Origin: a virus
Length of the DNA: 38,942 nt
IMG/VR virus record: IMGVR_UViG_3300046002_006032
Coordinates: 1-38,942 of that record
Direction: 5' to 3' (one strand)
Part shown: positions 2,123-19,157 of the stretch, one piece after another
Layout of the letters: each line of letters starts with the position of its first letter
Numbering within the stretch: the stretch's first letter is position 1
Notes under the pieces: model-generated
The model's input: the letters and a program-made list of their open reading frames with translations, nothing else
Database searches by the model: none
Told to the model about the DNA's origin: nothing
Position numbers and translations under genes: made by a program

Positions 2123-2127
2123 GTAGC

Positions 2128-2135: not shown

Positions 2136-2136
2136 T

Positions 2137-3534: not shown

Positions 3535-5111
3535 TGGATTTTCACTACGACGGACAGATACGACGGTATGTCACGCAGTTCATGCGTGTGTTCATTGGAT
3601 TTAAATATCAAGCAGGCGATGGCGAACAACGACAGATTCCTGTAATGTATGGCGATTTGACCAGACAGGTAGCCAGCATTATCAAAGATAATTCTGAAAA
3701 CAAAATGCCTACGGTGCCGAGAATAGCTTGTTATATCACAGGCATTGAGATGGATACTAACAGGCTCAGTGATCCCACATTCGTGTCTAAGATACATGTG
3801 AGAGAACGCAGATTCACAGACGCCAGTGGCACAAGAGAATATTCGGGCGCACAGGGCGGCAATTACACTGTTGAAAGGCTCATGCCTACTCCATTCAAAC
3901 TGACCATGAAAGCTGATATATGGACATCCAACACCGATCAAAAATTACAGTTGTTGGAACAGATATTAGTGCTGTTTAATCCCAGTTTAGAACTACAGAC
4001 CACTGACAATTATATAGACTGGACCAGTCTCAGCGCCATGTATCTAACCGGCACTAATTTTTCCAGTAGGACAATACCTCAAGGCGCAGAATCAGATATA
4101 GACATCTGCAGTCTTGATTTTGAAATGCCTGTGTATATATCACCACCGGCCAAGGTCAAAAAACTAGGCATAGTTCAAAGCATAATAGCCAATGTGTTCA
4201 CAGAACAGGGCGATGTGATGGATCTTTCAGATCTAATATACAACACTTCTCAATCCAGTATGACCCTAGTTACTAAAACTTATGGTAATTATCGAGTGTT
4301 ACTGTTCAAATCTAACACAGGAACAGTCAATGATAATCAATATGATCTCACACTCGTGAATCCATTAGATGCTGTGCAGTCATTGGGGCTGAGTCAGAAA
4401 GAATTTAAAAATGGCGAACCGGTAGAGTGGTCAAAGATTCTAGAGATACAAGGCGGCTATGTGCCGGGCAGTGAGATATGGTTCAAAAAAGCCAGTGGCT
4501 ATGAGATTGTGGGCACGTTTGTGATCAATCCTCTAGACCAGACTGTTCTCACGGTGACTTTAGATGCAGACACATATCCTGCCAATGACGACATTGCCAG
4601 TAGTATCCCCGGCATAGCTGCTAGAGGCACGGTAGATGCTATCATAGATCCTTACAAGTATAATCCGTTAGAAGTCTATGGATCATACTCGCAGATACCA
4701 GTAGGTTTAAGATTCTTGATGTTAGACGATGTCAACAACAGTGAGAATCGTGGAGGTTACATTAACCTTCCTTCTAATCCTGCAGACAGCACAAACATAC
4801 CATATAGAGGTCCGCAGGCCTGGCGTGATCCTAGTAATAACGATTCATCATGGGAAAATCAAGACGGCACGGATCCTGTGATCACAGCCAACTCTATTGT
4901 AGAGTGGACTGGGCAAACCTGGGCCACAATTTGGAATCCTGAAGATCATACATTGGAAGATGCAGCTATTGCAGGTGAAGATTTCTCACCCACACATATT
5001 CAAAATATCCGCACAGGCATCAAATACAAATGGGATGGCACTCAATGGCTCAAAGCATTTGAAGGTGAATATCTGCCAGGAGAGTGGAACTTCAAGACAG
5101 TGGGCGGATAA
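3534..5111 (+). CDS. gp15: Tail sheath stabiliser and completion protein gp15-like
   Basis: Caps the head-proximal end of the T4-type tail and joins it to the neck. The N-terminal half carries the family signature: FHYDGQIRRYVTQFMRVFIGF at the start (T4 gp15 begins with a similar FYNSSFRRY), PVMYGDLTRQVASI, then MPTPFKLTMKADIWTSN and a LLEQILVLFNP helix. T4 gp15 has about 272 aa; this one has 525. The second half is a long extension with strands rich in W, Y and N (for example VEWTGQTWATIWNPEDH and YKWDGTQWLKAFEGEY). As I recall, such extensions are usual in cyanophage-type homologues. The start codon shares its A with the gp14 stop. Confidence 0.88.
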   Translation: MDFHYDGQIRRYVTQFMRVFIGFKYQAGDGEQRQIPVMYGDLTRQVASIIKDNSENKMPTVPRIACYITGIEMDTNRLSDPTFVSKIHVRERRFTDASGTREYSGAQGGNYTVERLMPTPFKLTMKADIWTSNTDQKLQLLEQILVLFNPSLELQTTDNYIDWTSLSAMYLTGTNFSSRTIPQGAESDIDICSLDFEMPVYISPPAKVKKLGIVQSIIANVFTEQGDVMDLSDLIYNTSQSSMTLVTKTYGNYRVLLFKSNTGTVNDNQYDLTLVNPLDAVQSLGLSQKEFKNGEPVEWSKILEIQGGYVPGSEIWFKKASGYEIVGTFVINPLDQTVLTVTLDADTYPANDDIASSIPGIAARGTVDAIIDPYKYNPLEVYGSYSQIPVGLRFLMLDDVNNSENRGGYINLPSNPADSTNIPYRGPQAWRDPSNNDSSWENQDGTDPVITANSIVEWTGQTWATIWNPEDHTLEDAAIAGEDFSPTHIQNIRTGIKYKWDGTQWLKAFEGEYLPGEWNFKTVGG

Positions 5112-5775: not shown

Positions 5776-6303
5776 TTATTGAGCATTGTGCAAAATTGTT
5801 CCTTTTAGAACCCAACTTACACTTATACGTCTAGGTTTAGTTGACGCAATCGGTCTATGACTTAGATTAGAATCAAAAAATATGCCTGTGTTTTCTTTGT
5901 GGAAACATTTTTGATGTTCAAATTCAGTCCCGCCATTGCTATCATCTACATAATAAAGTAAACTATATGTTCCAGGTAATTTATAAGAGTTATCATTATG
6001 CCAGGCAGTGACCTGACCAGCAGTGTAAAAATTTATCATACAGTGATTTAAAAAATCAATTTTAAACCATTCTTTATTTTGATCTAACCATCGATCAAGA
6101 ACATAGGTCAATGATTCTACTCTGTTCCAATTATTGATGTTTTGTTGTTTATTAAATGTTAACTTACCAAATGCCGCCTTTTCTAAATCGATTTCACCGG
6201 TTGCATAACTTGGAAAATTCCAATCTAACATCGGATTTAATACTTGTTCTTTAACTATAGAATGCAACCATTCGTCTGTGAATTTGTTATACTGTTTAAT
6301 CAT
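5776..6303 (-). CDS. 2OG/Fe(II)-dependent oxygenase (HxD type)
   Basis: A 175-aa double-stranded beta-helix dioxygenase; the family couples 2-oxoglutarate decarboxylation to oxidation of a substrate. Iron ligands visible are H102 and D104 (AWHNDN) and H149 (LSHRPI), with R158/R159 as the likely 2OG carboxylate contact (KPRRISVSWVL). YSLLYYVDDSNGGTEF between them is the typical GG-turn core. It is close to small phage proteins annotated as prolyl-hydroxylase-like oxygenases. Its start overlaps the stop of the upstream gene (ATGA at 6300-6303) with no clear Shine-Dalgarno, so translation is probably coupled. It is the last gene of the minus-strand oxygenase operon. The substrate is unknown. Confidence 0.85.
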   Translation of the reverse strand: MIKQYNKFTDEWLHSIVKEQVLNPMLDWNFPSYATGEIDLEKAAFGKLTFNKQQNINNWNRVESLTYVLDRWLDQNKEWFKIDFLNHCMINFYTAGQVTAWHNDNSYKLPGTYSLLYYVDDSNGGTEFEHQKCFHKENTGIFFDSNLSHRPIASTKPRRISVSWVLKGTILHNAQ

Positions 6304-6986
6304 TTTTGCAATCGTTGTCGTTCTATCAACACATTCAAATTGTCTTTGGGCTCAAATTTTAATGTTGGAGCATCTAAATTTAAAAAACTGGTCTTATCTA
6401 ATAGGCCTATTGTTCCATTCACCCAAGTGTTAAAAGATAAACTTATCCTATCAGTGTCAGCTATTGATCTCATTACAGAATGTTCTAAGTAGGACGGAAA
6501 TATCAATAATGTTCCTTGTTTGATTTCAACTGTGGTGCTATGAGTGTTATATTGATTATATTTGATAGGAAACATCTTTAATGAGCCCCAAACACAATTT
6601 TTATCTACGTGAAATTCAATAGGTGCAGGATCCTCTGTGAAATATAGAACTCCGCTGACAATGCTATTCACATGATGATGTTGATAATGATATGCACCTG
6701 TTGTGGTACGATTCAACCAACTGATAGTAGGAAACAACTGATTAGATATAGACATTACCTCTCGAGCATATAGATTCAACTGTGTTTGCACAAAATCACA
6801 TACTCTTGACATTTCAGGTAAATGTATGATATCAAATCTATCCGATCCTACACATCTTCCTGGTTCATCTTTGTATCGAGAATACAAAGATGACTGTTTT
6901 ACAAATTCTAATTCTTCGTTGGTGAATCCTTGTATCTCTGCAACAAATAATGGAGTTGGAAATAACGGAATAACATCATGTGTCAT
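6300..6986 (-). CDS. 2OG/Fe(II) oxygenase, HxHxN subtype (2OG-FeII_Oxy_5-like)
   Basis: A 228-aa protein starting MTHDVIPLFPTPLF, the conserved 'xIxxLFPTPLF' entry strand of this oxygenase subfamily. Metal motif: H103-x-H105 followed by NSIVSGVLYF, and distal H169 in LLIFPSYLEHSV; R180 in DRISLSFNTWVNG is the expected 2OG contact. In this subfamily the HxD motif is often written HxH, so activity is plausible. A 50-residue insert (residues 120-155) separates the two halves. An AAGGCGG ribosome site precedes ATG 6986. It lies between two other oxygenases in the same operon. Paralogues here are 8290-8844, 9438-10037 and 15897-16496. Confidence 0.83.
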   Translation of the reverse strand: MTHDVIPLFPTPLFVAEIQGFTNEELEFVKQSSLYSRYKDEPGRCVGSDRFDIIHLPEMSRVCDFVQTQLNLYAREVMSISNQLFPTISWLNRTTTGAYHYQHHHVNSIVSGVLYFTEDPAPIEFHVDKNCVWGSLKMFPIKYNQYNTHSTTVEIKQGTLLIFPSYLEHSVMRSIADTDRISLSFNTWVNGTIGLLDKTSFLNLDAPTLKFEPKDNLNVLIERQRLQK

Positions 6987-6996
6987 AGAAACCGCC

Positions 6997-7518
6997 TTAT
7001 CTAAATTTTAAATCAAAGCCAATTATAGTTTTGATTGTGTGTGAATTATTAGGCAACGTGTAATGTAAAATATTACTCGGTACAATAATCATTAATCCTT
7101 CACTGGCTTCAATATTCTTTATCTCTGTTTGATCAGTTATGGGATTATTTACAGGATTAATAAAATAAGTTGGACTGTGTAAGGTTTCATCGTAATCTAA
7201 ATAGATGATTCCCGAATATCCCACCCCCGAGTGATTATGAGGGATATGAAATTCATCTTTTGCATAAGACACTGTCCATACGTCGCCTATATCTAATGAT
7301 TCTACTTTAATTTCATTAGAAAACAGAGCCAGTTCATTCTTAAAAATTTCAACAAACTCAGACTGATAGCTGTTATTACCTCGATCGCTTGCAAACAATT
7401 GACCGGGCTTTCTTACCAATGCCGCTGCATTAATTTTTTTTGAAATTTTTTCTTTCTTTGATTCCCAATCATTGATATAATAACTATAAAATTTTGTTTC
7501 AAACAATGTACTTTGCAC
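6997..7518 (-). CDS. Divergent 2OG/Fe(II) oxygenase-like protein
   Basis: A 173-aa protein with the double-stranded beta-helix pattern: PHNHSGVGYSGIIYLDYDE (H94, H96) and LMIIVPSNILHYTLPNN (H152). The arginine normally 10-11 residues after the distal His is replaced; the equivalent stretch is SHTIKTIIGFDL with K163, so 2OG binding may differ. The start is GTG at 7518, which shares its G with the TAG stop of the upstream gene; AGGGAA lies 8 nt before it. Predicted cytoplasmic, no membrane segments. Operon neighbours are oxygenases on one side and the DUF6065-like protein on the other. Confidence 0.72.
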   Translation of the reverse strand: MQSTLFETKFYSYYINDWESKKEKISKKINAAALVRKPGQLFASDRGNNSYQSEFVEIFKNELALFSNEIKVESLDIGDVWTVSYAKDEFHIPHNHSGVGYSGIIYLDYDETLHSPTYFINPVNNPITDQTEIKNIEASEGLMIIVPSNILHYTLPNNSHTIKTIIGFDLKFR

Positions 7519-8246
7519 TATTGATTTCCCTGAAAATATGATTTGATCTTAGCGTAATTTCTTACGAAAGTATTGTTCATCAATATATAATTTATCGTTA
7601 GTTCTTCTTTGCTAATATCAGTTCTGATTTCTAATTCCAAGGAATTCTTAGGAACTGCAATTAATTGTGCAAGGGGGGTGCCAGCTTTGATCACGGTTTC
7701 CTCATTGAGGTTGTGCCAAAATACCGGAACATTTATGTTATTGATTCCGTAGTCACTTGAATAAATCCCACTTAGAGCAGTGAATCGATTTTCATCGGCG
7801 TAGAATACAGAAGTTTGTATTAAAAGATAATCACTGGGAATTTTACAGCACCAGCCAGTGATAAATTTTATCACAGATCGGCTAGAATGATTCGGCCAGT
7901 TTTGAAATGTTTTAAACAAACTGTCTTGATGTTCCTCAATCGCCGGACTGCCGTTGATTTTTTCTTGATCAATAGGAGTTCTCCACTGTATTTTATCCTG
8001 TGACGAATCTGCTTTGACGTAGATATCTTGCCATGCTCGCACTACAAACCCTTGACTCTGTAAGATGTTGATTCCGGGACAATTAGAAATGCTGTGTATG
8101 GCATGCCCGAGATTATTTTTTTGATTTTTAAATTCTCTAGCTGCTTCCTGTTTCCAATTATGCACGATTTTATCTGCAGATAAAATCGGCATTGTCTTAT
8201 CGATGCCAGGTATAGTGGGATAAAATATAATCTTTTGTGCAGTCAT
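7518..8246 (-). CDS. Unknown protein, DUF6065-like; first gene of the oxygenase operon
   Basis: A 242-aa protein that I cannot assign a reaction. It contains an NCPGINILQSQGFVVRAWQD segment, a GWCCKIPSDYLLIQTSVFY segment, an INNINVPVFWHN strand and an AGTPLAQLIAVPK strand. The same order (K/N-C-x-x-I...G..I..W; PW.IKT; LPG..NY.Y...IN; PLTPLA) occurs in 14430-15233 of the other arm, so the two are distant paralogues. The layout resembles what I recall of the DUF6065 family, but that name is tentative. Both copies sit inside runs of 2OG oxygenases, suggesting a shared pathway. ATG at 8246 has no ribosome site, and a TATAAT box 7 nt away predicts a transcript that starts 1 nt before it. Confidence 0.7.
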   Translation of the reverse strand: MTAQKIIFYPTIPGIDKTMPILSADKIVHNWKQEAAREFKNQKNNLGHAIHSISNCPGINILQSQGFVVRAWQDIYVKADSSQDKIQWRTPIDQEKINGSPAIEEHQDSLFKTFQNWPNHSSRSVIKFITGWCCKIPSDYLLIQTSVFYADENRFTALSGIYSSDYGINNINVPVFWHNLNEETVIKAGTPLAQLIAVPKNSLELEIRTDISKEELTINYILMNNTFVRNYAKIKSYFQGNQ

Positions 8247-8253
8247 GTCTTTG

Positions 8254-8282
8254 ATTATAACACATCAACACAGATTTTACAA
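8254..8282 (-). promoter_or_regulatory. Sigma70-like promoter of the minus-strand oxygenase operon
   Basis: TTGTAA (8277-8282) and TATAAT (8254-8259) on the minus strand are 17 nt apart: 4/6 and 6/6 consensus matches. Predicted start about 8247, directly in front of the ATG at 8246. It lies in one of the few gaps of the island and would drive 8246 to 5776 independently of late transcription. Confidence 0.55.
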
Positions 8283-8289
8283 GCAATCA

Positions 8290-8844
8290 TTAACTCAAAA
8301 CAGAGTTGTTGTCAACACCCCAGACATTTTGACAAATAATTTCCATGTTAATAGAAACTCTATAATCTAAACTAAATGATTGATGAGGCTGATGGTTAAG
8401 ATATCCTGGAAAAATAATCAAATCACCAACGTTGGGTCTTATATTATAGATTTCATGAAAGTTATTATCATAAAAACTTAGAGACCCTTGATGTCTATCT
8501 GCAGTCTCGGGTATATTCAAATAGTAAACAGCATTAATTACACAGGTATTTAGGTGATTATGGATGCCACCTTTGTAAAAAAATTTGTTCGTTACATAAC
8601 CCCAACAGCTGGCAAGATTTCTTTGATCTAATTCTAGTGGACCAAAATGCTGGTTGGCAATATGAAAAAAATCTTTGTATAAGGTGTGAAACACTCCCGA
8701 AGAATCGTTGATTTGAAAATTATTTCCGGTGTTGTAGTCTGCCTTGTGATGTGCGGCTAACACCTGTGTCTTCATCCAATCAATTGGATAAGATTTTAAC
8801 CCTTGGTGTAAAAATATTGGTAGAGTTGAGTCTACTCGATTCAT
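8290..8844 (-). CDS. 2OG/Fe(II) oxygenase, HxHxN subtype
   Basis: A 184-aa protein. The metal motif is GGIHNHLNTCVINAVYYLN with H95 and H97; distal H151 is in LIIFPGYLNHQPH, and R162 (DYRVSINMEI) is the expected 2OG contact. A spacer with SLSFYDNN lies between the two halves. It matches the small marine-phage 'putative 2OG-Fe(II) oxygenase' type. It is separated from the DUF6065-like gene by a 43-nt gap with a promoter and follows the ferritin-like gene with an 18-nt gap. No clear Shine-Dalgarno is seen; a TATAAT-like string at 8853-8858 lies upstream but has no -35 partner. Confidence 0.83.
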   Translation of the reverse strand: MNRVDSTLPIFLHQGLKSYPIDWMKTQVLAAHHKADYNTGNNFQINDSSGVFHTLYKDFFHIANQHFGPLELDQRNLASCWGYVTNKFFYKGGIHNHLNTCVINAVYYLNIPETADRHQGSLSFYDNNFHEIYNIRPNVGDLIIFPGYLNHQPHQSFSLDYRVSINMEIICQNVWGVDNNSVLS

Positions 8845-8862
8845 GCGAACAGATTATATAAC

Positions 8863-9393
8863 TTATTCGTTGTCGGGTGGGGCAGGATCGTAGTATTTCA
8901 GCAGGTCTTCGAATGATTTTTTATGAGCAGATGCTCTTCTTGATAATTCAATAAACCACTCTGCTAAATGCGGCAACTTGTCTTCTCGAGCATCATCTGC
9001 ATATTTTGTATACAGCTCAACCGATGCTTGCATTTCAGAAGCAATTGCAGTTTCCAATACCTGGGTAATATGCATTGATGGCTTTCCAGTATCTGGATCA
9101 CCTAATCCACCTAAAATAGCTTCTTTTAAATGGCCTTGAGCAAACATATGTTTTTCTTCGGCAATCTGTTTAAAATAAGCTGTAGCATTTGCATCTTCAT
9201 ATTTTTCAGCCACAGTAGCAAAATAGTGATATCTATCATTAGATCGTGCCTCGGCAGCAAACGCCAGTTTAAGATTGGCTGCAGTCTTGCTATTCAATGC
9301 CACTGGAATAGCCAACGGTGTATTTGGATCAAGATCAGGGGGCGGAATTAATGGTTCTTGATATCCCTCTGGGACTGGTAATTCTGTGTTCAT
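8863..9393 (-). CDS. Rubrerythrin-like (ferritin-like) protein with degenerate diiron ligands
   Basis: A 176-aa four-helix ferritin-like protein. A proline-rich 30-residue N-terminus precedes helices beginning ANLKLAFAAEARSNDRYHYF and, after a GDPDTGKP linker, VLETAIASEMQASVELYTKY and LAEWFIELSRRASAHKKSF. This aligns by eye with alphaproteobacterial-type rubrerythrins that share the GDPxTGxP linker; there is no rubredoxin domain. Of seven usual metal-site residues, E48, E120 and H157 remain, but K81, F84, A123 and A154 occupy the places of Glu, His, Glu and Glu. Peroxidase function is therefore doubtful; an oxygen- or peroxide-protection role near iron oxygenases would otherwise be attractive. 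GGAG precedes ATG 9393, and a late motif lies at 9430-9437. Confidence 0.82.
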   Translation of the reverse strand: MNTELPVPEGYQEPLIPPPDLDPNTPLAIPVALNSKTAANLKLAFAAEARSNDRYHYFATVAEKYEDANATAYFKQIAEEKHMFAQGHLKEAILGGLGDPDTGKPSMHITQVLETAIASEMQASVELYTKYADDAREDKLPHLAEWFIELSRRASAHKKSFEDLLKYYDPAPPDNE

Positions 9394-9429
9394 GTAAATG
9401 ATCTCCGGAATGAGTAAAATTATATAGTG

Positions 9430-9437
9430 TATTTATG
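9430..9437 (-). promoter_or_regulatory. Putative late promoter of the ferritin-like gene (CATAAATA)
   Basis: Minus-strand CATAAATA directly after the stop of the upstream oxygenase gene. Predicted start near 9424 gives a 31-nt leader that includes CGGAG, an ordinary leader in contrast to the leaderless cases. Confidence 0.6.
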
Positions 9438-10037
9438 CTATGCGTTGATCACAAGAGTGTTATTATTGAAATTACCTTTGATGAAAGTATTAAAAGAAAT
9501 ACTCAATCGTTCGTTGTTTGTGGTATTTACAGGCACACTGTGAAAGAGAGTGGAAGGAAAAAGTATTAACATTGCATCTTCAACAGGAATCTGCCATTCT
9601 ATGCTGTTAAATGGTGTACGTTCGCTGCACTCAAACTCCATAAAAAACGGTGATGTTAGCCTGTTGAAACAGATAGAATTTTCACTGTCTGCAACATTCA
9701 CATAGTATACTCCTGAAATCACGCTATTTCTGTGATTGTGCAGATCGTGTGGTTGTCCTTTTTTATTTTGATTTTTCCAGGAATTTGTCATATAAAATTG
9801 GCAGTTTGTTTTAATCACTTCTCGAGCATAATTATGTACATGCTCCATGAATATGTTTTTCAAATCTGAGAATACATCGCTATCAAGCAGGGTTGAATTA
9901 ACAGATGTCTGATTGCCTTGTCTACTTATAGAGGTTACGGTATTAGTGTCATATGCAATTCGTTCAGCCGCTGATAACTTTCTAAGATTGATTCTATAGA
10001 TAGCTGCAGGAAAAATTGGAATAATTTGTGGATTCAT
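9438..10037 (-). CDS. 2OG/Fe(II) oxygenase, HxHxN subtype
   Basis: A 199-aa protein opening with MNPQIIPIFPAAIY, the subfamily's entry strand. Iron motif H100-x-H102 in DLHNHRNSVISGVYYV; distal H166 in LILFPSTLFHSVPV; R177 in ERLSISFNTFIKG. It is the closest relative in the window to 6300-6986 (shared NSxxSGVxY and the ISFNTxxxG end). It lies between the fibre-like gene upstream and the ferritin-like gene downstream, with a 106-nt upstream gap holding an ATTAAATA motif and little else. The substrate is unknown; position next to a fibre gene allows virion-protein modification as a guess. Confidence 0.85.
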   Translation of the reverse strand: MNPQIIPIFPAAIYRINLRKLSAAERIAYDTNTVTSISRQGNQTSVNSTLLDSDVFSDLKNIFMEHVHNYAREVIKTNCQFYMTNSWKNQNKKGQPHDLHNHRNSVISGVYYVNVADSENSICFNRLTSPFFMEFECSERTPFNSIEWQIPVEDAMLILFPSTLFHSVPVNTTNNERLSISFNTFIKGNFNNNTLVINA

Positions 10038-10061
10038 GATCTCATATACTTTGCAAACGAG

Positions 10062-10069
10062 TATTTAAT
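10062..10069 (-). promoter_or_regulatory. Weak late-promoter match (ATTAAATA) before oxygenase 10037
   Basis: Minus-strand ATTAAATA in an AT-rich 106-nt intergenic stretch; the predicted start near 10056 would give a 19-nt leader with only GAGATC as ribosome site. The rest of this gap shows no gene or strong hairpin. Confidence 0.35.
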
Positions 10070-10143
10070 TCAATAATTTCAGATTCAAAAATAAATTAGC
10101 TATTATCAACTATTTGATTTATAATGTCAGAATTGAAAGAAAA

Positions 10144-12426
10144 TTAAATACTGGCAAAGTTTTTAATCTGAATAGTTCCAATCATAGCAGCATGAACACT
10201 ACACTGATATCTGTAGCTACCAGTAATTGAATCTGGAATCTTCCAATATAGTGTGCCCGATGTTTGACCTTGAGCCGACGCTCCTGTAGTTACGGTGCCC
10301 CCTGTGGTCACGTGTACCAATCCTGTGTTATAATTTGCGCCAGCGCCGTCTTGTATCAAGAATGGATGTCCAGTCACATTGAGATTGAAAGCTATGGTGG
10401 TGCCATTGATGGCATAGACTGTAGGATCGTCAGTGGTGCCATATTGGTCAAATCTGTAAGCACTAGCTCCGTTGTTTGTGACATTAAGTCTTGTTATTGC
10501 CTGTAGATAAAATTGGTCTATGGTGAGATCTGCACGATCACTTAGTCCGGTGAATGATGTGGCGCCTGCGCTGACTGTGCTGGTAATTGTCACTGTGTCT
10601 GTGCCGGCATCCGTGGTTATTGAGATCCCTGTGCCTGCAGCTATAGTAAGAGTGTCAGTGGCCGAATCTGCTACCACAGAACTCTGCCCAGCTACTGCTA
10701 TTGTTTCAAAAGTGTTTTGGCCAGTACCTGAGTTGGTAATGGTCACAGTGTCTGTACCTGCATCTGTGGTAATAGTAATGCCTGTACCTGCCACCAGTGT
10801 TAGTGTGTCTGTGGCTGAATCTGCTACAACATTCGATTGGCCTGCCACAGATATAGTGGCAAAACTGTCAGATGCTAATCCTCCGCCCGAAACAGTAGCC
10901 CATGTATTGTCGCCTCTAAGGTAGGTGCTGGCACTAGGTGTTCCTGACGACCCGAGTCTTCCGATGGGTACTGTGCCGCTGGTGAGTTGTGTAGCATTTA
11001 ATGCTGTGAGATTAGCCCCGCTGGCCGCTGGTAATGTTGCAGGAAGTGCTGTGAGATTTGCGCCACTCACTGCAGGCAACGTAGCCGGAAATCTGGCGTC
11101 CGGTATGGTGCCTGAAGTCAACTGCGTAGCATTTAACGAAGTAAGTGCTGAACCTCCACCACTGAAGTTAGTGGCCGTAAGTAGTCCAGCATCTGATATG
11201 GTTGCAGAGCTGGTTTGTATGATAGTACCGGTAGTACCGTCATAGCGTACAATAGCATTATCGACATATCCGCCACCACTGCTAAGAACATCTCCTGTAC
11301 CTGCTCCCGAAGCTCCTGCTGGCCCTTGCGGTCCTACTGGCCCAGGTACACCTACAGCAGAAGTATTCTGTCTTGTGCCGTCTGCAAATACGATTTCATT
11401 GCCTACTACCACATCTGATTCAAAATTTACAGCAGGAGTTACAGTGATAGCTGTGCTGTCTGTGCTGTCTATGGTGTTAGCAACAAATGTTATGTTGCCT
11501 GTGCTGGCTGTGCTGGTAATTGTAATGGCATCTGTGCCAGCATTAGTTGTGAGGGTTATACCTGCGCCTGCCACTAGTGTCAGCGTATCTGTGGGGGTGC
11601 CCGCAGCCACTGAGCTTTGCCCTGCTACTGCTATTGTGGCAAAACTATTAGACTCTAAGTCTGTATCATTAATCCAATTTGTGCCGTTATACTTCAACAC
11701 CTGGTTAATTGTTGGAGTTGTTAACACAACATCACTCAAGTCATTTAGTGCGCCTCCGCTACCGGTTCCTGATCCAGGATCTGCTACTGCTATTGACTGA
11801 CCCATGGCCAAGTGATTCCAACACCAATAGTAGAGCAAAGCTGGCGTAGAATTAGTGACTGTGATACGCACCTGCCGTGCAGTGGCTGTGGCAAACATAT
11901 TACTGTTATACACTGCCTGTGTAACATTAACATTATCTAGGTAATATTGCACATCTACAAGATAACTTGTGCCGCCGCCATTGTTTCCACTGAGATTATC
12001 TGCGGAAAAATTCAAAGGATGCTGATTTACTGTAGTTCCATTGACGTTAGGAAAGTAGACGTTGGTAGGATCGTCCTGAACAAACACATAGGTATAGCCC
12101 ACTACAAAATTCAGTATAGGACGATAAACACCGTTAAGATTGTATTTGTTGCCTGTATCGCCGCCTTGAGGACCTGTGATTGTTACCTGATATGTGACTG
12201 TAGCCAGTTTAGAAACCACAGACTTAGATCTAAAATCACTGGTTGACACATTGGCAAGATCTCCTCTAGCTAAATTTAATCCGCCAGTGGATGATCCGTT
12301 GTAAATTCTAAGGGTATTAGCTGTTTGATCGTAAAAAACTTCACCTCTTAGCCCTGACTTTCTGTTCAGAAATTCAGCGTCTCTTGGAATTATTCTTACT
12401 GCATCGGATACGGATATTTTGGCCAT
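10144..12426 (-). CDS. Fibre-like virion protein with two cupredoxin-like domains, a collagen-like tract and beta repeats
   Basis: A 760-aa, Thr/Ser/Gly/Ala-rich, Lys-poor protein typical of phage fibres. Order: an N-terminal fibre segment (EVFYDQTANTLRIYNG) to about residue 60; a cupredoxin-like domain at about 75-215 with H136 and C202-x2-H205-x2-M208; an LNDLSDVVL/YNGTNW motif near 235-255; a 45-residue repeat (SFATIAVAGQSS...TDTLTLVAG) present three times; a short collagen-like tract of six GXY triplets (GVP GPV GPQ GPA GAS GAG) near residue 360; two ATQLTSGT repeats; and a C-terminal cupredoxin-like domain with H687 and C742-x2-H745-x2-M748. Role in the virion is inferred. Its minus-strand late motif is at 12451-12458. 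Confidence 0.85.
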   Translation of the reverse strand: MAKISVSDAVRIIPRDAEFLNRKSGLRGEVFYDQTANTLRIYNGSSTGGLNLARGDLANVSTSDFRSKSVVSKLATVTYQVTITGPQGGDTGNKYNLNGVYRPILNFVVGYTYVFVQDDPTNVYFPNVNGTTVNQHPLNFSADNLSGNNGGGTSYLVDVQYYLDNVNVTQAVYNSNMFATATARQVRITVTNSTPALLYYWCWNHLAMGQSIAVADPGSGTGSGGALNDLSDVVLTTPTINQVLKYNGTNWINDTDLESNSFATIAVAGQSSVAAGTPTDTLTLVAGAGITLTTNAGTDAITITSTASTGNITFVANTIDSTDSTAITVTPAVNFESDVVVGNEIVFADGTRQNTSAVGVPGPVGPQGPAGASGAGTGDVLSSGGGYVDNAIVRYDGTTGTIIQTSSATISDAGLLTATNFSGGGSALTSLNATQLTSGTIPDARFPATLPAVSGANLTALPATLPAASGANLTALNATQLTSGTVPIGRLGSSGTPSASTYLRGDNTWATVSGGGLASDSFATISVAGQSNVVADSATDTLTLVAGTGITITTDAGTDTVTITNSGTGQNTFETIAVAGQSSVVADSATDTLTIAAGTGISITTDAGTDTVTITSTVSAGATSFTGLSDRADLTIDQFYLQAITRLNVTNNGASAYRFDQYGTTDDPTVYAINGTTIAFNLNVTGHPFLIQDGAGANYNTGLVHVTTGGTVTTGASAQGQTSGTLYWKIPDSITGSYRYQCSVHAAMIGTIQIKNFASI
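10571..11655 (-). repeat. Three copies of a 45-residue fibre repeat
   Basis: Within the 760-aa fibre, a module reading SFATIAVAGQSS, then TDTLTLVAGxGITxTT and NAGTDxxTIT, occurs at about 11500-11655, 10732-10872 and 10571-10713. The latter two are nearly identical in protein and close in DNA, suggesting recent duplication or gene conversion. Confidence 0.8.
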
Positions 12427-12450
12427 TGATATTCTTTGTTATTAGTCTAT

Positions 12451-12458
12451 TATTTATT
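12451..12458 (-). promoter_or_regulatory. Putative late promoter of the 760-aa fibre gene (AATAAATA)
   Basis: Minus-strand AATAAATA; predicted start about 12445 and a 19-nt leader. It is back to back with the perfect plus-strand TATAAATA at 12481-12488. Confidence 0.5.
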
Positions 12459-12480
12459 CTAAAAATGCAGACTGGATACC

Positions 12481-12488
12481 TATAAATA
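12481..12488 (+). promoter_or_regulatory. Perfect late-promoter motif TATAAATA
   Basis: An exact match to the T4 late consensus, followed 4 nt later by the GTG that opens the 78-aa frame at 12493. T4 spacing puts +1 at 12494, so this would be a leaderless GTG-initiated mRNA. Confidence 0.6.
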
Positions 12489-12492
12489 AACA

Positions 12493-12729
12493 GTGACTTT
12501 GACTATCAAAATACTACAAGATGACTGCGCTGTGAGTCCTGTTTTTCTCAAAGCCGTGGAATATCTTATAGAAAAACAAAATAATACAGATCAGTTGTCT
12601 TTAGATCTACAGTCTGTGATTAGACATCACTGGCAAACAGAATTTAAATCATCAATTTCTGAAGATTGGAGTTGCATTGAGTTTTCAAATAGTTTAGATC
12701 TGATGACTTTTTCATTGAAATTCAGTTGA
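12493..12729 (+). CDS. Small protein of unknown function (GTG start)
   Basis: A 78-aa acidic protein, no Cys cluster, no membrane segment, with a helical middle (FLKAVEYLIEKQNN, DLQSVIRHHWQTEF) and a short aromatic C-terminus. I do not recognise it. The only upstream in-frame start is GTG at 12493 (TTG at 12499 is the alternative), and a perfect late promoter lies 4 nt before it, which is the main reason to believe the gene. Its last 8 nt overlap the convergent gene 12722-13066. Confidence 0.6.
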   Translation: MTLTIKILQDDCAVSPVFLKAVEYLIEKQNNTDQLSLDLQSVIRHHWQTEFKSSISEDWSCIEFSNSLDLMTFSLKFS

Positions 12730-13066
12730 TTTCATCTACCCATACATTGTTGGTAGCAAGATCTATATCATATGTTGCAAGAAATTCCTGAACCCTATTC
12801 GAAGCATCTTTTCCAAAAAATGTCAACGAATGGAACTTTGTTTCCGCTAACACAGGATAATAAACCAAATAGAATTCACAATAAGGATCCCAGGCAGCGT
12901 ATACACCTATTACACCTGGTTTAAAATAAATTTCTTCCCAAACTGTTATATCTGCAACACAAGGAGTAGCAGTAGTTTGCAAATTGTTAGACGAGATGTT
13001 TTGACAATAATTTTTATAAAACTTGTGACTGAATATCTCGTCGCTGGAAATAAAACGGGTGGCCAT
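12722..13066 (-). CDS. Unknown conserved phage protein, paralogue of 16505-16933
   Basis: A 114-aa protein with a core VWEEIYFKPGVIGVYAAWDP, then EFYLVYYP, LTFFGKDASNRVQEFL and a WVDE end. The paralogue at 16505 has VEIWEQICYKTGGIGLYAAY, AEFYIV, CFYGPGSMQAAYRRA and WVDD, so the order and spacing are kept. As I recall, proteins with this W-E-x-I-x-x-K-x-G-x-I-G-x-Y-A-A pattern occur in cyanophage-type genomes without a function. ATG at 13066 has no ribosome site and the CATAAATA motif predicts a start 1 nt before the ATG. It is divergent from the plus-strand oxygenase operon. Confidence 0.75.
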   Translation of the reverse strand: MATRFISSDEIFSHKFYKNYCQNISSNNLQTTATPCVADITVWEEIYFKPGVIGVYAAWDPYCEFYLVYYPVLAETKFHSLTFFGKDASNRVQEFLATYDIDLATNNVWVDEIN

Positions 13067-13072
13067 AATCAG

Positions 13073-13080
13073 TATTTATG
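13073..13080 (-). promoter_or_regulatory. Putative late promoter of 12722-13066 (CATAAATA), predicted leaderless
   Basis: Minus-strand CATAAATA ends 6 nt before the ATG at 13066; predicted +1 about 13067. Another of the near-leaderless arrangements. Confidence 0.5.
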
Positions 13081-13098
13081 AAATAATTCCGTTGCTCT

Positions 13099-13106
13099 CT
13101 TAAATA
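13099..13106 (+). promoter_or_regulatory. Possible late promoter of the plus-strand oxygenase operon (CTTAAATA)
   Basis: Plus-strand CTTAAATA; predicted start about 13112 and a 22-nt leader with AAAAGGAC as ribosome site before ATG 13134. A weaker match than TATAAATA. Confidence 0.4.
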
Positions 13107-13133
13107 GCATAGCTCGTATAAAAGGACAACAAT

Positions 13134-13763
13134 ATGACCGTGGTAATAAACAATTTTTTTCCTGGGGAACTACAGCCAAGCACTGTGATAGCAGGTTGTA
13201 TTGCCATTTATGAAAATGCCTGGCCGAACCCAGAGAACACTATCAAGATGGTGGAAAACGCAGCTTCTAATTCAGATTCCGGAGTGCATTGGCAACGAGC
13301 CGAAACCACTCAGGAAGGACCACATCAAACACACAGAACAAACAAAATGATGGGAGTTACTCATCTAGCAGGAATTACCAATAATGCTGTATTACAAAAT
13401 GTTCATAATCAGTTCTATATGTTATTATTAGCAGCATCAATTCCCTATGCTAAAAGATTTAATATCAAGGAAGGTCTTTGGCACGAACATTATCAAATGT
13501 TAAAATACGATCAAGGCGAAGAATACAAAGGACATTATGATGGCGGAACTCCTATAGGAAGAGCAATATCTTGCTTGTGTTATTTAAATGACAATTTTGA
13601 AGGAGGTGAGTTGGAATTTCCTAATTTTCACGTAAAAATTAAACCTGAACCCGGAATGTTAATTTTGTTCCCATCCAACTATGCGTATCTACACATTGCA
13701 CACCCAATAACATCTGGCACAAAATACAGCATGGTAACGTGGATCAAGGATAGAGAAATATAA
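13134..13763 (+). CDS. Prolyl-4-hydroxylase-like 2OG/Fe(II) oxygenase
   Basis: A 209-aa protein of the P4H/PHD-like group. Motifs: YDQGEEYKGHYDGG with iron ligands H134 and D136; the ISCLCYLNDNFEGGELEF strand with the GG turn; GMLILFPSNYAYLHIAHPITSGTKYSMVTW with distal H187 and K197 as the 2OG contact (Lys, as in prolyl-4-hydroxylases). This is the clearest oxygenase of the window; family members hydroxylate proline or other side chains in proteins. First gene of the plus-strand operon, with AAGGAC in its leader. One base separates its stop from the next start. The fibre 0.7 kb away carries a collagen-like tract with a proline in the Y position (GVP), a possible substrate. Confidence 0.9.
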   Translation: MTVVINNFFPGELQPSTVIAGCIAIYENAWPNPENTIKMVENAASNSDSGVHWQRAETTQEGPHQTHRTNKMMGVTHLAGITNNAVLQNVHNQFYMLLLAASIPYAKRFNIKEGLWHEHYQMLKYDQGEEYKGHYDGGTPIGRAISCLCYLNDNFEGGELEFPNFHVKIKPEPGMLILFPSNYAYLHIAHPITSGTKYSMVTWIKDREI

Positions 13764-13764
13764 T

Positions 13765-14433
13765 ATGTATTTTCCTTCTCTGTGTGTAGATAATTTTTAT
13801 AACGATCCGAATGTGATCAGAGAGTTTGCGTTATCTTTAGAATTCAAAACAACTTCTAATGTGCCATGGCCTGGCAAAAGATCACCTTCCCTAGATTCTG
13901 TAAATCCTGTATTTTTTAAAAATTTCTGCGATAAGCTATTTTCCCTGACCTTTGATTTTAAAAAAACCAACAGTGTTAAATGGGCTGTGGAAACCTACTT
14001 CCAAATTGCAGAACCAGATCAATACTCATCAATCAATCAAGGATGGATTCATGCAGACTATAAGCCATATGCTGGGGTGATATATCTCACTCCCGGTATA
14101 GATACGGGCTGCGGCACTTCGTTGTTTAGACCAAAAAAACCATTTGATATACCGATCAATCTAGAAGAAAAACAAGATATGTTTTTGAACTTTGATAGAA
14201 CTAAAACTGATTTCTATAATGAAAAGCTACAGGAAAACAACAGTCTATTTGAAGAAACTGTGAATTTTAAAAATATCTATAATAGAATTGTTGCCTATGA
14301 CGGATTCCAGTATCATGGTGTAAATAAATTTACAGGGCATGATAACAGGCCCAGACTTACACAGGTATTTTTTATTCAAGAAGTAAGTTCTGATTATTTT
14401 CCTATTCCTGCATCGAGACAAATATTATTATGA
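13765..14433 (+). CDS. DUF6445-like protein with 2OG-oxygenase-type motif
   Basis: A 222-aa protein. WIHADYKPYAGVIYLTPG (H96, D98), CGTSLFRPKK, and NRIVAYDGFQYHGVNKFTG (H184) followed by PRLTQVFFI (R197) reproduce the HxD...H...R spacing of double-stranded beta-helix oxygenases. The flow 'HxD, YLTP, GT.LFR, NR.V.YDG...H' is what I remember of DUF6445; that name is tentative. Strictly it is an oxygenase-like protein of unproven activity. The start is ATG 13765, one base after the preceding stop. Its stop overlaps the next start (ATGA at 14430-14433), so the operon is tightly coupled. Confidence 0.75.
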   Translation: MYFPSLCVDNFYNDPNVIREFALSLEFKTTSNVPWPGKRSPSLDSVNPVFFKNFCDKLFSLTFDFKKTNSVKWAVETYFQIAEPDQYSSINQGWIHADYKPYAGVIYLTPGIDTGCGTSLFRPKKPFDIPINLEEKQDMFLNFDRTKTDFYNEKLQENNSLFEETVNFKNIYNRIVAYDGFQYHGVNKFTGHDNRPRLTQVFFIQEVSSDYFPIPASRQILL

Positions 14434-15233
14434 AATTTCCGTATTTTTTTACTAGACAAGAAGAAGTGGTAGTAGACTGCTTTACTCATCTTGCACATGC
14501 CTACGACTACGCTAAAATTGACTGGGCTATGAAGTATGCTCCGGATTGGTGGAGACAGTTGCCATCAAAAGTGCCAGACTCTGATCCCCCTTTGGTAACC
14601 ATAAAACATTGTAACGCAATTATAGAATACTATAAAAAAGGCATAGCTATTCCTTCATGGTTTGAAATGAATATGATGGTAAATCCCATAGGATCTGAAA
14701 AAGAGTGGGAATGGGTGAGTTCTAACGGGGACGTTTCTACTCCTACTAATCATCCAGGTGTGCAATTTCCTGGCTTTGCTGGCCAGCATGGTCATAATAT
14801 AAAACTTATTTCTCCCTGGGCAATTAAAACTAAAAAAGACATGAATTTTACTTGGACTGAACCGTTATGGAATATGCAAGACACCCATGGAGTTATATCA
14901 GTATTGCCTGGCTTAGTGAACTACAAATATACCCATGCCACTGAAATTAACCTATTTGTAAAACAGACCAAAGAATTGCAAACTTGCACCATACTGCCGT
15001 TGACTCCACTGGCTATTATGCACCCTATGACTGAAAAGAAGATCAAACTTGTGCATCATTTGGTCACTCAGTCCGAATATCAACGAGTATTTGGCATTGA
15101 TAAATTTGTGATGAAAAGAGATGAATATCGTGATTCTACTCAACTTTATAATAACAAAAAAAGACTGCATGAAAAAATAGAACAACAAGCACTTGGTTGT
15201 CCTTTTCATCAAGGAGCTTCAAATGGAAAATAA
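14430..15233 (+). CDS. Unknown protein, DUF6065-like, paralogue of 7518-8246
   Basis: A 267-aa soluble protein of unknown activity. Characteristic stretches: IKHCNAIIEYYKKGIAIPSWFE near residue 55, ISPWAIKTKKDMNFTW near 130, SVLPGLVNYKYTHATEINLF near 155, and ILPLTPLAIMHPM near 190. The C-terminus carries LGCPFHQGAS. The same skeleton in 7518-8246 shows that each arm of the island has one copy. Repeated pairing with 2OG oxygenases argues for a common pathway, perhaps a substrate carrier, partner or another enzyme. Start ATG overlaps the preceding stop; the following gene begins 11 nt before its end. Confidence 0.7.
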   Translation: MKFPYFFTRQEEVVVDCFTHLAHAYDYAKIDWAMKYAPDWWRQLPSKVPDSDPPLVTIKHCNAIIEYYKKGIAIPSWFEMNMMVNPIGSEKEWEWVSSNGDVSTPTNHPGVQFPGFAGQHGHNIKLISPWAIKTKKDMNFTWTEPLWNMQDTHGVISVLPGLVNYKYTHATEINLFVKQTKELQTCTILPLTPLAIMHPMTEKKIKLVHHLVTQSEYQRVFGIDKFVMKRDEYRDSTQLYNNKKRLHEKIEQQALGCPFHQGASNGK

Positions 15234-15900
15234 AGACTTTTTTGAAAAAAACAAATACTTAGTATTAAGATCCGCAATCTCCACGGAACTAAGAGATTTT
15301 GTCACTCAATATGCTCTGTTTGATGAAATGCAAGATTTCACTCCGGAAAAAGCCTTAATGGGCGACGGAGCTCAGTGTGCTGAAGCTCATTCAAAATACT
15401 GTGATCCTGCAATGGAAAGCATGTTGTTGCATCTGCAACCTGTGCTAGAACAAGCAGTGGGTTTTTCTCTGTTTCCAACTTATTGCTATTATAGAGTTTA
15501 TAGAAACGGTGACACACTTACTCCCCATGTAGATAGGCCTAGTTGTGAAATTTCTGCAACTCTGTGTTTCAATTTCAATTACGATGCTGACAAAGTTTGG
15601 TCAATATATATGGATGGTAATCGAGTGGATCTACTACCCGGTGACCTAGCAATTTATCGAGGATGTGATGTGCCTCATTGGCGCGAACCTTTCGACAAAG
15701 GTCAAGATGCTTGGCAAGTGCAGGCTTTCTTTCATTATGTAGATGCTCATGGACCAAATGCAGAATGGAAATGGGACAAACGTGATTCTTTGGGCATGCT
15801 AGGCACCGTCCCTAGTCTAGAACTTCTAAAAGAATATAAAACATCTACTAAACCCGGTGATGCTGTGGCTGAGAAATCCTATATCCAATACACCAAATGA
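15223..15900 (+). CDS. 2OG/Fe(II) oxygenase-like protein (HxD type)
   Basis: A 225-aa protein. ATG at 15223 is chosen over an upstream start at 15193 because AAGGAGC lies 6 nt before it and the upstream start would extend further into the previous gene. YRVYRNGDTLTPHVDRPSCE supplies H102 and D104; LLPGDLAIYRGCDVPHWREP supplies distal H152. The usual basic 2OG contact about 10 residues later is not obvious (DAWQVQAFF), so cosubstrate binding is less certain. FNFNYDADKVWSIYMDG is the central strand. Similar proteins are common in marine phages. It overlaps the next gene by ATGA. Confidence 0.82.
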   Translation: MENKDFFEKNKYLVLRSAISTELRDFVTQYALFDEMQDFTPEKALMGDGAQCAEAHSKYCDPAMESMLLHLQPVLEQAVGFSLFPTYCYYRVYRNGDTLTPHVDRPSCEISATLCFNFNYDADKVWSIYMDGNRVDLLPGDLAIYRGCDVPHWREPFDKGQDAWQVQAFFHYVDAHGPNAEWKWDKRDSLGMLGTVPSLELLKEYKTSTKPGDAVAEKSYIQYTK

Positions 15901-16496
15901 TAGACGGTTGGTTCCCCACACTGATCTACAATGATACATTAAATTTTCAACATAGACAGTATCTTGTAAACAAGGCCAAGACCATATATTTTCAGACTCA
16001 AGGTCATACTGTTACCAAGTGGGCCTGTGATACCTACAATACTGTGGGATTTTATGATTATAGATCTGATCAAGACACTATAGTTATATCCTTGATTGAG
16101 CTGCTTCGAAACAAGGTACACGAATTTGGTAAAAACTACGGTATTAATCTTCCCATCGAAACTCTTTACTGCAAAGACTTTTGGTTTAATCTTGCAGAAC
16201 CGGGAGCCTATCAAGAATATCATCAACACACACGATCTCATTTCAGTGTTAGTTACTATCTGTCTGTGTTAGAAAATTGTGGAAAAATTCGGTTTAGAAG
16301 CATAGAAGCCATGACTGACATGTATACTCTTCCGGTAGAAGGCAATCTTGAAAATTTTGCTAGCAGGAAAACCTGTACGTATGAACCAGTAGACGATTTG
16401 CTTTTGATATTTAGATCTAATGTTCCACACATGGTGGAAAAAAATTACAGTAAAGAGCTTAGGATTAGCATTAGCGCAAACTTTGAATATGCCTAG
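15897..16496 (+). CDS. 2OG/Fe(II) oxygenase, HxH subtype
   Basis: A 199-aa protein starting MIDGWFPTLIYND, the entry strand of the 2OG-FeII_Oxy_5-like group. Metal motif EYHQHTRSHFSVSYYLS with H109 and H111; distal H178 in LLIFRSNVPHMVEKN; R189 in ELRISISANFEYA. The FWFNLAEPGAYQEYHQH lead-in is typical. Last gene of the plus-strand operon; its start overlaps the preceding stop (ATGA), and it converges with 16505-16933 across 8 nt without a visible terminator hairpin. Confidence 0.83.
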   Translation: MIDGWFPTLIYNDTLNFQHRQYLVNKAKTIYFQTQGHTVTKWACDTYNTVGFYDYRSDQDTIVISLIELLRNKVHEFGKNYGINLPIETLYCKDFWFNLAEPGAYQEYHQHTRSHFSVSYYLSVLENCGKIRFRSIEAMTDMYTLPVEGNLENFASRKTCTYEPVDDLLLIFRSNVPHMVEKNYSKELRISISANFEYA

Positions 16497-16504: not shown

Positions 16505-16933
16505 TTAATCAGACAATGTGACATTGCCTTGCTGTTTGGCTCCACCAGGTTGATGCAACCACAGATCTTTATCGTCTACCCAGGTTTCTTTTACAGCAAC
16601 TATCATTCCTACTTCTTTGGCTCTGCGATATGCAGCCTGCATGGAACCTGGGCCGTAAAAACATTCAATATTGCCAGGTTTTGCCTGTATCCATTTTCCT
16701 GTGACAATATAAAATTCAGCATAGGGCAGATATGCAGCATATAACCCTATGCCTCCGGTTTTGTAGCAAATCTGTTCCCAGATTTCCACATCCTCGATCC
16801 TCATTTCTCTATCATATTTCCAATCCACAGTTGGTGGCGCATAAGGAACATCATGATCCATCCAATTCTCATTGAACAATTCATCTTCCCAAGGCGCTGT
16901 GAATATGTCTCGATTGGTTTTAAAAATTGCCAT
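16505..16933 (-). CDS. Unknown conserved phage protein, paralogue of 12722-13066
   Basis: A 142-aa protein; the C-terminal two-thirds (VEIWEQICYKTGGIGLYAAY, AEFYIVTGKW, CFYGPGSMQAAYRRAKEVG, KETWVDDKD) match the 114-aa protein at 12722. An N-terminal acidic/aromatic segment of about 45 residues is specific to this copy. No catalytic motif, signal peptide or membrane segment is seen. Its ATG overlaps the stop of the glycine-rich adhesin gene (TAATG), so it is the last cistron of the fibre operon. With its paralogue it brackets the plus-strand oxygenase arm in the same orientation. Confidence 0.75.
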   Translation of the reverse strand: MAIFKTNRDIFTAPWEDELFNENWMDHDVPYAPPTVDWKYDREMRIEDVEIWEQICYKTGGIGLYAAYLPYAEFYIVTGKWIQAKPGNIECFYGPGSMQAAYRRAKEVGMIVAVKETWVDDKDLWLHQPGGAKQQGNVTLSD

Positions 16934-17877
16934 TAGTTAGGATACCTTACTACCACTAGGCCGCTGGCACCGTATCCCGAACCTGCACCCCAGCCAATGT
17001 TTGGAGCCCAGTATGAGCCTGCGCCGCCGCCTGATCCGGAATTAGCTGTATAGGCATGAGTTACTCCCCATCCTCCGCGAGGATCTTGACTGTATGAATA
17101 GTAGCTGTAGCCCCAATTTGGAGTAGATCCGTGACCTCTACCGCCACCGCTGGCTCCATCTCCACCTGGTTCTGAGCTGTTACCACCACCACCACCACCA
17201 CCTGCTCGAGCTAATGCAGAGCCAGTGATTGAGCTGCTGGTACCAAGTCCACCTTGATGATTCTGACCGGCTTGACTGGACCCACCACCGCCACCGCCCG
17301 ACCAAGTATATGTGTATGGACTACCTGGAAACCCTTGACCCGGTTGGCTCGAACCGGCGCCGTAGCCGTAGGCTGCTCCGCCACCACTTCCACCGTATTG
17401 GCCGGCTGAGCCATGATAATAGCCGCCGTAACCTCCATAGATGCCCTGTATAGGTCCAAGATTACTAGAAGCGCCATTTGCACCGCCATTGTAAGGTTGA
17501 GGTCCACCACCTGTGCCAACTGTAACTGGCGTCGTGCCTGTTGTCAGGGGTGTGGTGCCTGATAGGTATCCTCCGGCACCGCCGCCACCATTGCCGTTGG
17601 TGCTGTATCCCTGGCCGCCGCTGCCGCCACCGCCAATAACTAGATACTCCACAGTTATACCAGCGGCGGTATTCACCAAATTCATTGCTGAATTTTTGTA
17701 TTGGTCTTTGACTTTGACATTTAGCTGATGATCTCCCACGGTGGTAAACATGTGAATGGTATAGCCGCCAGCAGTGTATACTTTATCACCGCCAGTGATT
17801 TCATAGATAGATTCCGAAATTGCTTTTTCGGGCTGTTGAATATTTGATTGACTTCTTATTGTGCTGATAAAAGGCAT
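16933..17877 (-). CDS. Glycine-rich tail-fibre tip/adhesin-like protein
   Basis: A 314-aa protein. It starts with a short segment, then AGGYTIHMFTTVGDHQLNV, a strand-rich cap, VEYLVIGGGGSGGQ, and then about 200 residues dominated by Gly with Ser, Tyr and Asn (runs such as GGGGGGSS and GGGGGGGN), ending GASGLVVVRYPN. This cap/glycine-run/LVVVRYP layout is the glycine-rich domain common in aquatic phages. T-even gp38 adhesins also use polyglycine-II-type glycine-rich motifs to bind receptors, so receptor binding is a reasonable inference. An AGGAG site precedes ATG 17877. Gly-rich repeats of this sort change quickly by recombination. Confidence 0.8.
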   Translation of the reverse strand: MPFISTIRSQSNIQQPEKAISESIYEITGGDKVYTAGGYTIHMFTTVGDHQLNVKVKDQYKNSAMNLVNTAAGITVEYLVIGGGGSGGQGYSTNGNGGGGAGGYLSGTTPLTTGTTPVTVGTGGGPQPYNGGANGASSNLGPIQGIYGGYGGYYHGSAGQYGGSGGGAAYGYGAGSSQPGQGFPGSPYTYTWSGGGGGGSSQAGQNHQGGLGTSSSITGSALARAGGGGGGGNSSEPGGDGASGGGRGHGSTPNWGYSYYSYSQDPRGGWGVTHAYTANSGSGGGAGSYWAPNIGWGAGSGYGASGLVVVRYPN

Positions 17878-19149: not shown

Positions 19150-19157
19150 TATTTAGT
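19150..19157 (-). promoter_or_regulatory. Putative late promoter (ACTAAATA) overlapping the stop of the giant fibre gene
   Basis: The TAA stop of the 2614-aa gene is part of this ACTAAATA motif. Predicted start 19144 gives a 15-nt leader for 18809-19129. Confidence 0.55.

Follow-up and report, generated by a model that had tools for sequence, protein, structure and literature searches.

The stretch of DNA analysed here (the window) spans 38,942 nucleotides, positions 1 to 38,942 of IMG/VR virus record IMGVR_UViG_3300046002_006032, and carries between positions 5,776 and 16,496 a two-armed island of twelve genes, nine of which encode proteins of 2-oxoglutarate (2OG)/Fe(II)-oxygenase types. Genes of the same families recur beside glycine-rich tail proteins in other phages, and we read the island, at a probability of roughly 0.45, as a tail-linked module for post-translational oxidation of tail adhesins and fibres. 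The observed basis of this reading consists of the enzyme families, one predicted fold, conservation of motif residues, selection and recurrent gene context.

Nine oxygenase-type proteins in two divergent arms

The sequence-only reading had placed nine oxygenase-type open reading frames (ORFs) in the island, and all nine were recovered at the same coordinates and strands (Table 1), with B4 starting (15223) at an ATG that lies inside an ORF opened by a TTG at 15193. All are assigned to 2OG/Fe(II)-oxygenase types, oxygenation itself being predicted: seven exceed the Pfam cutoff (five PF13759, one PF13640 and one DUF6445), A1 is assigned by a PHROG match together with a sub-cutoff Pfam match, and B4 by its predicted fold. 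The loose HxD/HxH...H...R/K pattern on its own is weak, matching shuffled versions of the nine proteins at rates between 0.07 and 0.53, along with four other ORFs of the window, and the oxygenase claim therefore rests on profiles and on conservation of the motif residues.

Members of PF13759 carry two invariant histidines as HxH in place of HxD. H103, H105, H169 and R180 of A2 are invariant (n = 42 homologues), H100, H102, H166 and R177 of A7 are each conserved in at least 95% (n = 62), and in B5, as in A2 and A7, both HxH histidines and the distal histidine are conserved at 96% or more. A3 lacks the usual arginine near the last histidine, and its H94, H96 and H152 are invariant (n = 10). Outside PF13759, H102, D104, H152 and R154 of B4 are invariant (n = 67), H96-D98-H184-R197 of B2 is conserved in at least 96% (n = 24), and in B1 both histidines are conserved in at least 98% and D136 in less than 85%. 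Conservation in A1 and A5 was read from two to three sequences; H102-D104-H149-R159 of A1 is kept in the single divergent relative aligned.

A1, B1 and B4 resemble prolyl 4-hydroxylases (P4H) or PHD-type enzymes by sequence or fold, A1 through PF13640 and phrog_274 only, and hydroxylation of peptidyl proline is a candidate activity for them. The solved proteins nearest to B1 are the bacterial P4H 3itq and 5hv0 (E 3e-8). The model of B4, built with 24 viral relatives, is a double-stranded beta-helix (predicted local distance difference test, pLDDT, 88), and its best Foldseek match in the PDB is the Pseudomonas putida prolyl 4-hydroxylase 4j25 (E 5e-11), followed by PHD2 (E 3e-8); on this fold the PHROG label of phrog_2954, ferrochelatase, was rejected for B4. 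PDB sequence searches with phrog_2954, phrog_7084 and DUF6445 returned nothing useful. The PHROG names 'DNA endonuclease V' (phrog_274) and 'minor coat protein' (phrog_1644) are, like 'ferrochelatase', misplaced on 2OG/Fe(II)-type proteins, and the same three names sit on such proteins at a further locus (L042, gp46 and gp51-gp54).

All twelve island genes are under purifying selection, with dN/dS of 0.05-0.27 against relatives of 81-95% identity. The five PF13759 copies reach a best pairwise identity of 22-36% where alignable and scatter across a FastTree tree (deep supports low) rather than grouping as tandem duplicates, which agrees with the earlier view that the sub-types differ and are no simple duplicates.

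Table 1. Features of the island and of its surroundings in the window (E, expectation value)
Feature	Coordinates	Strand	Basis or position
A1, P4H-like 2OG/Fe(II) oxygenase (predicted)	5776..6303	-	PF13640 E 4e-5, 24.9 bits (cutoff 27); phrog_274 E 6e-16
A2, PF13759 (2OG-FeII_Oxy_5) oxygenase (predicted), HxH...H...R type	6300..6986	-	PF13759 73 bits, E 2e-20
A3, PF13759 oxygenase (predicted)	6997..7518	-	PF13759 34.5 bits, E 3e-8
A4, phrog_7084 protein	7518..8246	-	phrog_7084 E 5e-40
A5, PF13759 oxygenase (predicted)	8290..8844	-	PF13759 35.6 bits, E 1e-8
A6, rubrerythrin/ferritin-like di-iron protein	8863..9393	-	PF02915 E 5e-11; sulerythrin E 3e-23
A7, PF13759 oxygenase (predicted)	9438..10037	-	PF13759 78 bits, E 8e-22
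B1, prolyl-4-hydroxylase-like oxygenase (predicted)	13134..13763	+	PF13640 58.5 bits, E 1e-15
B2, DUF6445 oxygenase (predicted; phrog_1644)	13765..14433	+	PF20043 51 bits, E 2e-13
B3, second phrog_7084 protein	14430..15233	+	phrog_7084 E 1e-13
B4, phrog_2954 oxygenase, PHD2/P4H-like predicted fold	15223..15900	+	phrog_2954 E 6e-46; no Pfam match
B5, PF13759 oxygenase (predicted)	15897..16496	+	PF13759 59 bits, E 5e-16
Minus arm, A7 to A1	10037 to 5776	-	after the fibre run
Plus arm, B1-B5	13134 to 16496	+	between fibre genes
Tail fibre/baseplate connector	10144..12426	-	phrog_677 E 1e-49; directly upstream of the minus arm
Glycine-rich tail-adhesin-like protein, candidate substrate	16933..17877	-	phrog_2295 E 3e-28; 28% Gly, 8% Tyr
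Small protein without family	12722..13066	-	resembles 16505-16933; the pair brackets the plus arm
Small protein without family	16505..16933	-	other flank of the plus arm
Tail/fibre run	major-head fragment 38670; fibres 27031-32646, 19153-26997, 18809, 17893, 16933, 10144-12426	-	
Neck protein, dNMP (deoxynucleoside monophosphate) kinase, sheath stabiliser	649-5111		beyond the minus arm

The phrog_7084 proteins and the rubrerythrin

A4 and B3 had been taken for DUF6065-like partners, an identity that was rejected when neither hmmscan nor a six-frame search gave a PF19541 match at E<=1; both belong to phrog_7084. The AlphaFold model of A4 (pLDDT 90) matches dUTPases locally in Foldseek (E 4e-4; template-modelling score about 0.3 for the query and about 0.5 for the target), and the Pfam dUTPase match of the phrog_7084 proteins is weak and below the cutoff (E 0.024). 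The catalytic Asp of dUTPase motif 3 is replaced by S, N, E or other residues in the phrog_7084 proteins of the window and in many relatives, and the model suggests a dUTPase-like fold without the conserved catalytic Asp. A single genome scan for bacterial relatives turned up nothing beyond a phage-like contig, a fragment from Prochlorococcus and a haloarchaeon; homologues of 23-27% identity occur in tailed viruses of Halorubrum and Haloarcula (e.g. HF2 and HRTV-5). The ferritin-like protein proposed earlier, A6, proved to be of the rubrerythrin type, and its sole match in the phage collection is one pelagiphage protein.

A recurrent cassette beside glycine-rich tail proteins

The neighbourhood survey ran purpose-built profiles over 190 loci, each locus scan covering the best 80 loci; the contigs are incomplete, the redundancy filter is k-mer based and the loci are phylogenetically non-independent. 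Kyanoviridae and more than 20 IMG/VR contigs share one order, in which a long fibre, two or three glycine-rich tail proteins (20-35% Gly) and a phrog_1787 protein precede one or two flavin halogenases, phrog_7084 and then PF13759, DUF6445, JmjC, P4H and phrog_2954 genes, and in several genomes the cassette runs straight into neck and tail genes. The succession halogenase, phrog_7084, PF13759 is stable over many divergent contigs. An oxygenase gene lies at most 3 kb from 30 of the 33 non-redundant phrog_7084 genes, usually together with a flavin halogenase and upstream glycine-rich tail adhesins. The window has phrog_7084 alongside PF13759, DUF6445, P4H and phrog_2954 genes, as in the cyanophage cassette, and the pelagiphage podovirus HTVC023P has the same families beside tail genes. 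In Syn9, gp42 matches the halogenase VirX1 (6QGM) over its full length (1271 bits), and Syn10, the source phage of VirX1, has the corresponding gene at the same cassette position.

Two related loci, L027 and L028, are 59-73% identical to the window over the plus arm, which in L028 lies between two glycine-rich tail ORFs. The 73% relative keeps the plus arm, and A1-A7 are absent from about 5 kb past its fibre gene; a two-arm unit travelling together was therefore rejected. Related phages carry differing subsets of the genes, mostly with a halogenase that the window phage does not have. Of the assembled pathway seen in the sequence-only reading, a conserved and selected gene set thus stands, and its travel as a unit does not; the survey of marine phages suggested there likewise bears out a recurring association of phrog_7084 with oxygenases and speaks against a fixed set. 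Nor are nine oxygenases an unusual count or a record, since Syn9 has eleven oxygenase-type genes (JmjC protein counted) in about 8 kb, the L031/L032 contig is denser than the window with ten PF13759 matches and four phrog_7084 genes, and 24 and 10 oxygenase genes are reported for S-SCSM1 (PMC9602691) and S-CREM1 (PMC9964418), respectively.

Tail regions may be rich in both kinds of genes, and anchor loci were therefore compared within one collection. Glycine-rich ORFs occur within 6 kb at 22 of 48 phrog_2954 loci, 1 of 36 UvsW helicase loci (Fisher 5e-6) and 1 of 56 gp6 baseplate loci (Fisher 2e-8), and among these three anchors the glycine-rich link is specific to phrog_2954. Oxygenase genes number 2.78 per 10 kb at phrog_2954 loci, 2.00 at UvsW loci and 0.12 at gp6 loci. 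The UvsW loci L289-L368, with dense oxygenases and without glycine-rich tail proteins, may represent another type of oxygenase cluster.

Variant arrangements were also seen. L139-L141 have cassettes adjoining relatives of the window's fibres, with three tandem phrog_7084 genes, P4H and phrog_2954 after the fibres, followed by two or three halogenases encoded on the other strand, and L148, L156-L158 and L184 have one or two extra opposite-strand halogenases after phrog_2954. Between the plus-arm phrog_7084 and phrog_2954, positions 11454-12193 of L023 and a matching stretch of L024 hold about 740 bases more than the window. L132 (NZ_RMVE01000006.1, titled Nonlabens xiamenensis) carries a full cyanophage-type cassette, and this contig looks like a co-sequenced cyanophage filed under a bacterium.

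Fibre genes and affiliation of the phage

The two arms diverge, and the fibre gene 10144-12426 and the small ORF at 12722 sit at the start of the minus arm. The fibre protein has at residues 359-376 a six-repeat collagen-like run, GVPGPVGPQGPAGASGAG, which is present in the window lineage, has different residues in relatives of 88-91% identity, and is missing from the orthologous fibre of L027/L028, where the minus arm is missing too. Collagen hydroxylation as a general role was rejected, since such runs were confined to this one fibre, in the window lineage and in close relatives of it. L027 and L028 have separate orthologues of both small flanking proteins near their plus arm. Near the start of the window, adjoining the gene for dNMP kinase, positions 364-702 may encode an HNH endonuclease (phrog_2255, E 8e-6).

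A megablast of the window against phages gave no match. Record G001 (281,658 bases) encodes A4 and B2 proteins 100% identical to those of the window, together with 28 tRNA genes and no psbA; its terminase (TerL) is nearest to those of PA5oct-type Pseudomonas jumbo phages (54%), and the neck protein of the window is 43-44% identical to those of PA5oct-type phages and Sinorhizobium phage Phosso. Judged on TerL and the neck protein, the phage is nearest to PA5oct-type jumbo phages (Arenbergviridae), and 'T4-like marine phage', as the source had been called, was imprecise.

Proposed function and alternative explanations

If the island oxidises tail proteins, its mixed P4H/PHD2-like and PF13759-type oxygenases would act late in infection and, with Fe(II), O2 and 2-oxoglutarate, would hydroxylate side chains of the tail fibres and glycine-rich adhesins that the phage itself makes, or oxidise them in some other way, each enzyme at a site of its own. 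The phrog_7084 proteins may serve as non-catalytic partners or adaptors, the rubrerythrin could manage iron or peroxide, and in the cyanophage versions a flavin halogenase, VirX1 in the case of Syn10, would add halogens to aromatic residues of those fibres and adhesins. We favour this reading because the cassette order recurs beside glycine-rich tail proteins, phrog_7084 genes lie near oxygenases, glycine-rich ORFs are enriched at phrog_2954 loci, and both the L028 plus arm and the HTVC023P families adjoin tail genes. Among solved proteins, those closest to B1 and B4 are moreover prolyl hydroxylases of proteins or peptides, the collagen-like fibre run occurs where the minus arm does, and the VirX1-type genes of Syn9 (near-identical) and Syn10 lie inside the cassette. 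A broader version, in which marine and related jumbo phages finish their receptor-binding tail tips by means of co-inherited hydroxylases acting on glycine-rich adhesins (joined in cyanophages by an iodinating or brominating VirX1), with dUTPase-fold phrog_7084 proteins recruiting them, is put forward as a tentative and rather unlikely extension; if true, viruses would thereby encode a system of their own that modifies host-recognition proteins after translation.

Several observations weigh against tail-protein oxidation. No modification was seen on any phage tail protein in this analysis. The window phage has neither halogenase nor phrog_1787 gene: no PF04820 flavin halogenase was found in G001 (a 281 kb relative) or four other near relatives, and phrog_1787 (gp40) had no match in the window or G001. 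The cyanophage cassettes have no collagen-like runs, so proline hydroxylation of such repeats cannot be the general role, and the candidate adhesin at 16933-17877, about 0.4 kb from B5, is on the strand opposite to the plus arm. Few oxygenases lie near glycine-rich genes in S-SCSM1 (0/23) and P-SSM2 (1/24), and a whole-genome rotation test of their proximity in nine genomes gave a pooled p of 0.014, with none below 0.05 singly, a weak result that was replaced by the control-anchored loci. Oxygenase density, at 2.0 per 10 kb near UvsW, is not tail-specific, and this clustering away from tails keeps both accretion and host metabolism in play.

Accretion without joint function, in which a stretch close to tail-fibre genes, hyperplastic and prone to recombination, gathers oxygenases with separate roles, is unlikely but as serious a rival as the published reading. 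The near-equal density at UvsW, the separable arms with subsets varying among phages, and PF13759 copies from different lineages all speak for it; the stable order of halogenase, phrog_7084 and PF13759 and the oxygenases accompanying phrog_7084 (30/33) speak against it. The published reading of phage 2OG oxygenases is host metabolism (Sullivan et al. 2010, PMC3037559; PMC9602691; PMC9964418): the enzymes would sense 2-oxoglutarate or use it up, or would modify proteins or metabolites of the host, and so tune nitrogen and energy metabolism, with 2OG/NtcA modulation or host reprogramming as proposals (PMC3037559, PMC9602691). The structure of PPHD, the closest fold match of B4, was determined with EF-Tu, a housekeeping protein, bound to it. 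The NtcA logic is cyanobacterial, however, whereas the window phage is PA5oct-like and without psbA; draining 2OG needs no nine divergent low-identity enzymes, and the link of phrog_7084 and phrog_2954 to tail adhesins is left unexplained, so that we hold this reading, too, to be unlikely.

Tailoring of a small-molecule or peptide product during infection, for which pyrrolnitrin-like halogenase chemistry was once suggested, would suit flavin halogenases and 2OG oxygenases as typical tailoring enzymes, and antibiotic protection has been speculated upon (PMC2984593, PMC9964418). We consider it improbable: no synthase, precursor peptide or transporter was seen in the window or the cassettes examined, the neighbours are virion genes for tail fibres and tail, and the window shows no sign of a small-molecule pathway. 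Improbable as well is modification of DNA or nucleotides, with the oxygenases oxidising bases and the dUTPase-like phrog_7084 proteins handling nucleotides. TET/JBP-type 2OG enzymes do modify phage DNA in other systems, and the phrog_7084 fold would fit; yet the families here are P4H/PHD2 and PF13759, with a Tet_JBP trace in B1 alone (E 0.065), the dUTPase catalytic Asp is not conserved, and the island has no base-modification partners.

Comparison with known systems

Of the unexplained genes that marine T4-like phages carry, those for 2OG oxygenases belong to the commonest. VirX1 has been described as the first viral halogenase to be characterised. Its active site is large and open, and no native substrate of it is known (PMC8407142). 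For both, the adhesin-linked cassette offers a concrete candidate substrate. The cassette as a unit is not described in the literature found, subscription papers and supplements lying outside the search. Correcting three widely copied names matters as well, for these labels hid 2OG-type enzymes. Oxygenase-rich phages are already known; new is the variant in the window, a PA5oct-like phage with two arms, a rubrerythrin and no halogenase.

The closest counterpart is the halogenase/phrog_7084/oxygenase cluster of Kyanoviridae cyanophages (Syn9 gp40-gp54, Syn10 with VirX1, S-CREM1, P-TIM40 and S-RIM44), which shares phrog_7084, PF13759, DUF6445, P4H-like and phrog_2954 genes beside glycine-rich and tail genes. 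What sets the window apart from it is a pair of divergent arms flanking a fibre gene, the presence of two copies of phrog_7084 and of a rubrerythrin, the setting in a PA5oct-like jumbo phage, and the lack of halogenase, JmjC and phrog_1787 genes. The T4-like cyanophages S-SCSM1 and S-CREM1 resemble it in their many low-identity PF13759 and PF13640 proteins per genome, whereas the oxygenase genes of S-SCSM1 are scattered, with 0 within 8 kb of a glycine-rich ORF. PA5oct itself, to which terminase (54%) and neck protein (43%) point as the closest phage in culture, also has a dNMP kinase beside its neck gene, but its genome is without any PF13759 gene. Among protein prolyl hydroxylases (P. putida PPHD, Bacillus P4H, PBCV-1 P4H and PHD2), the likeness lies in the predicted fold of B4 and the sequence of B1; the fold matches of B4 are of 10-19% identity, and B4 has invariant residues of its own (R105, R154 and D185).

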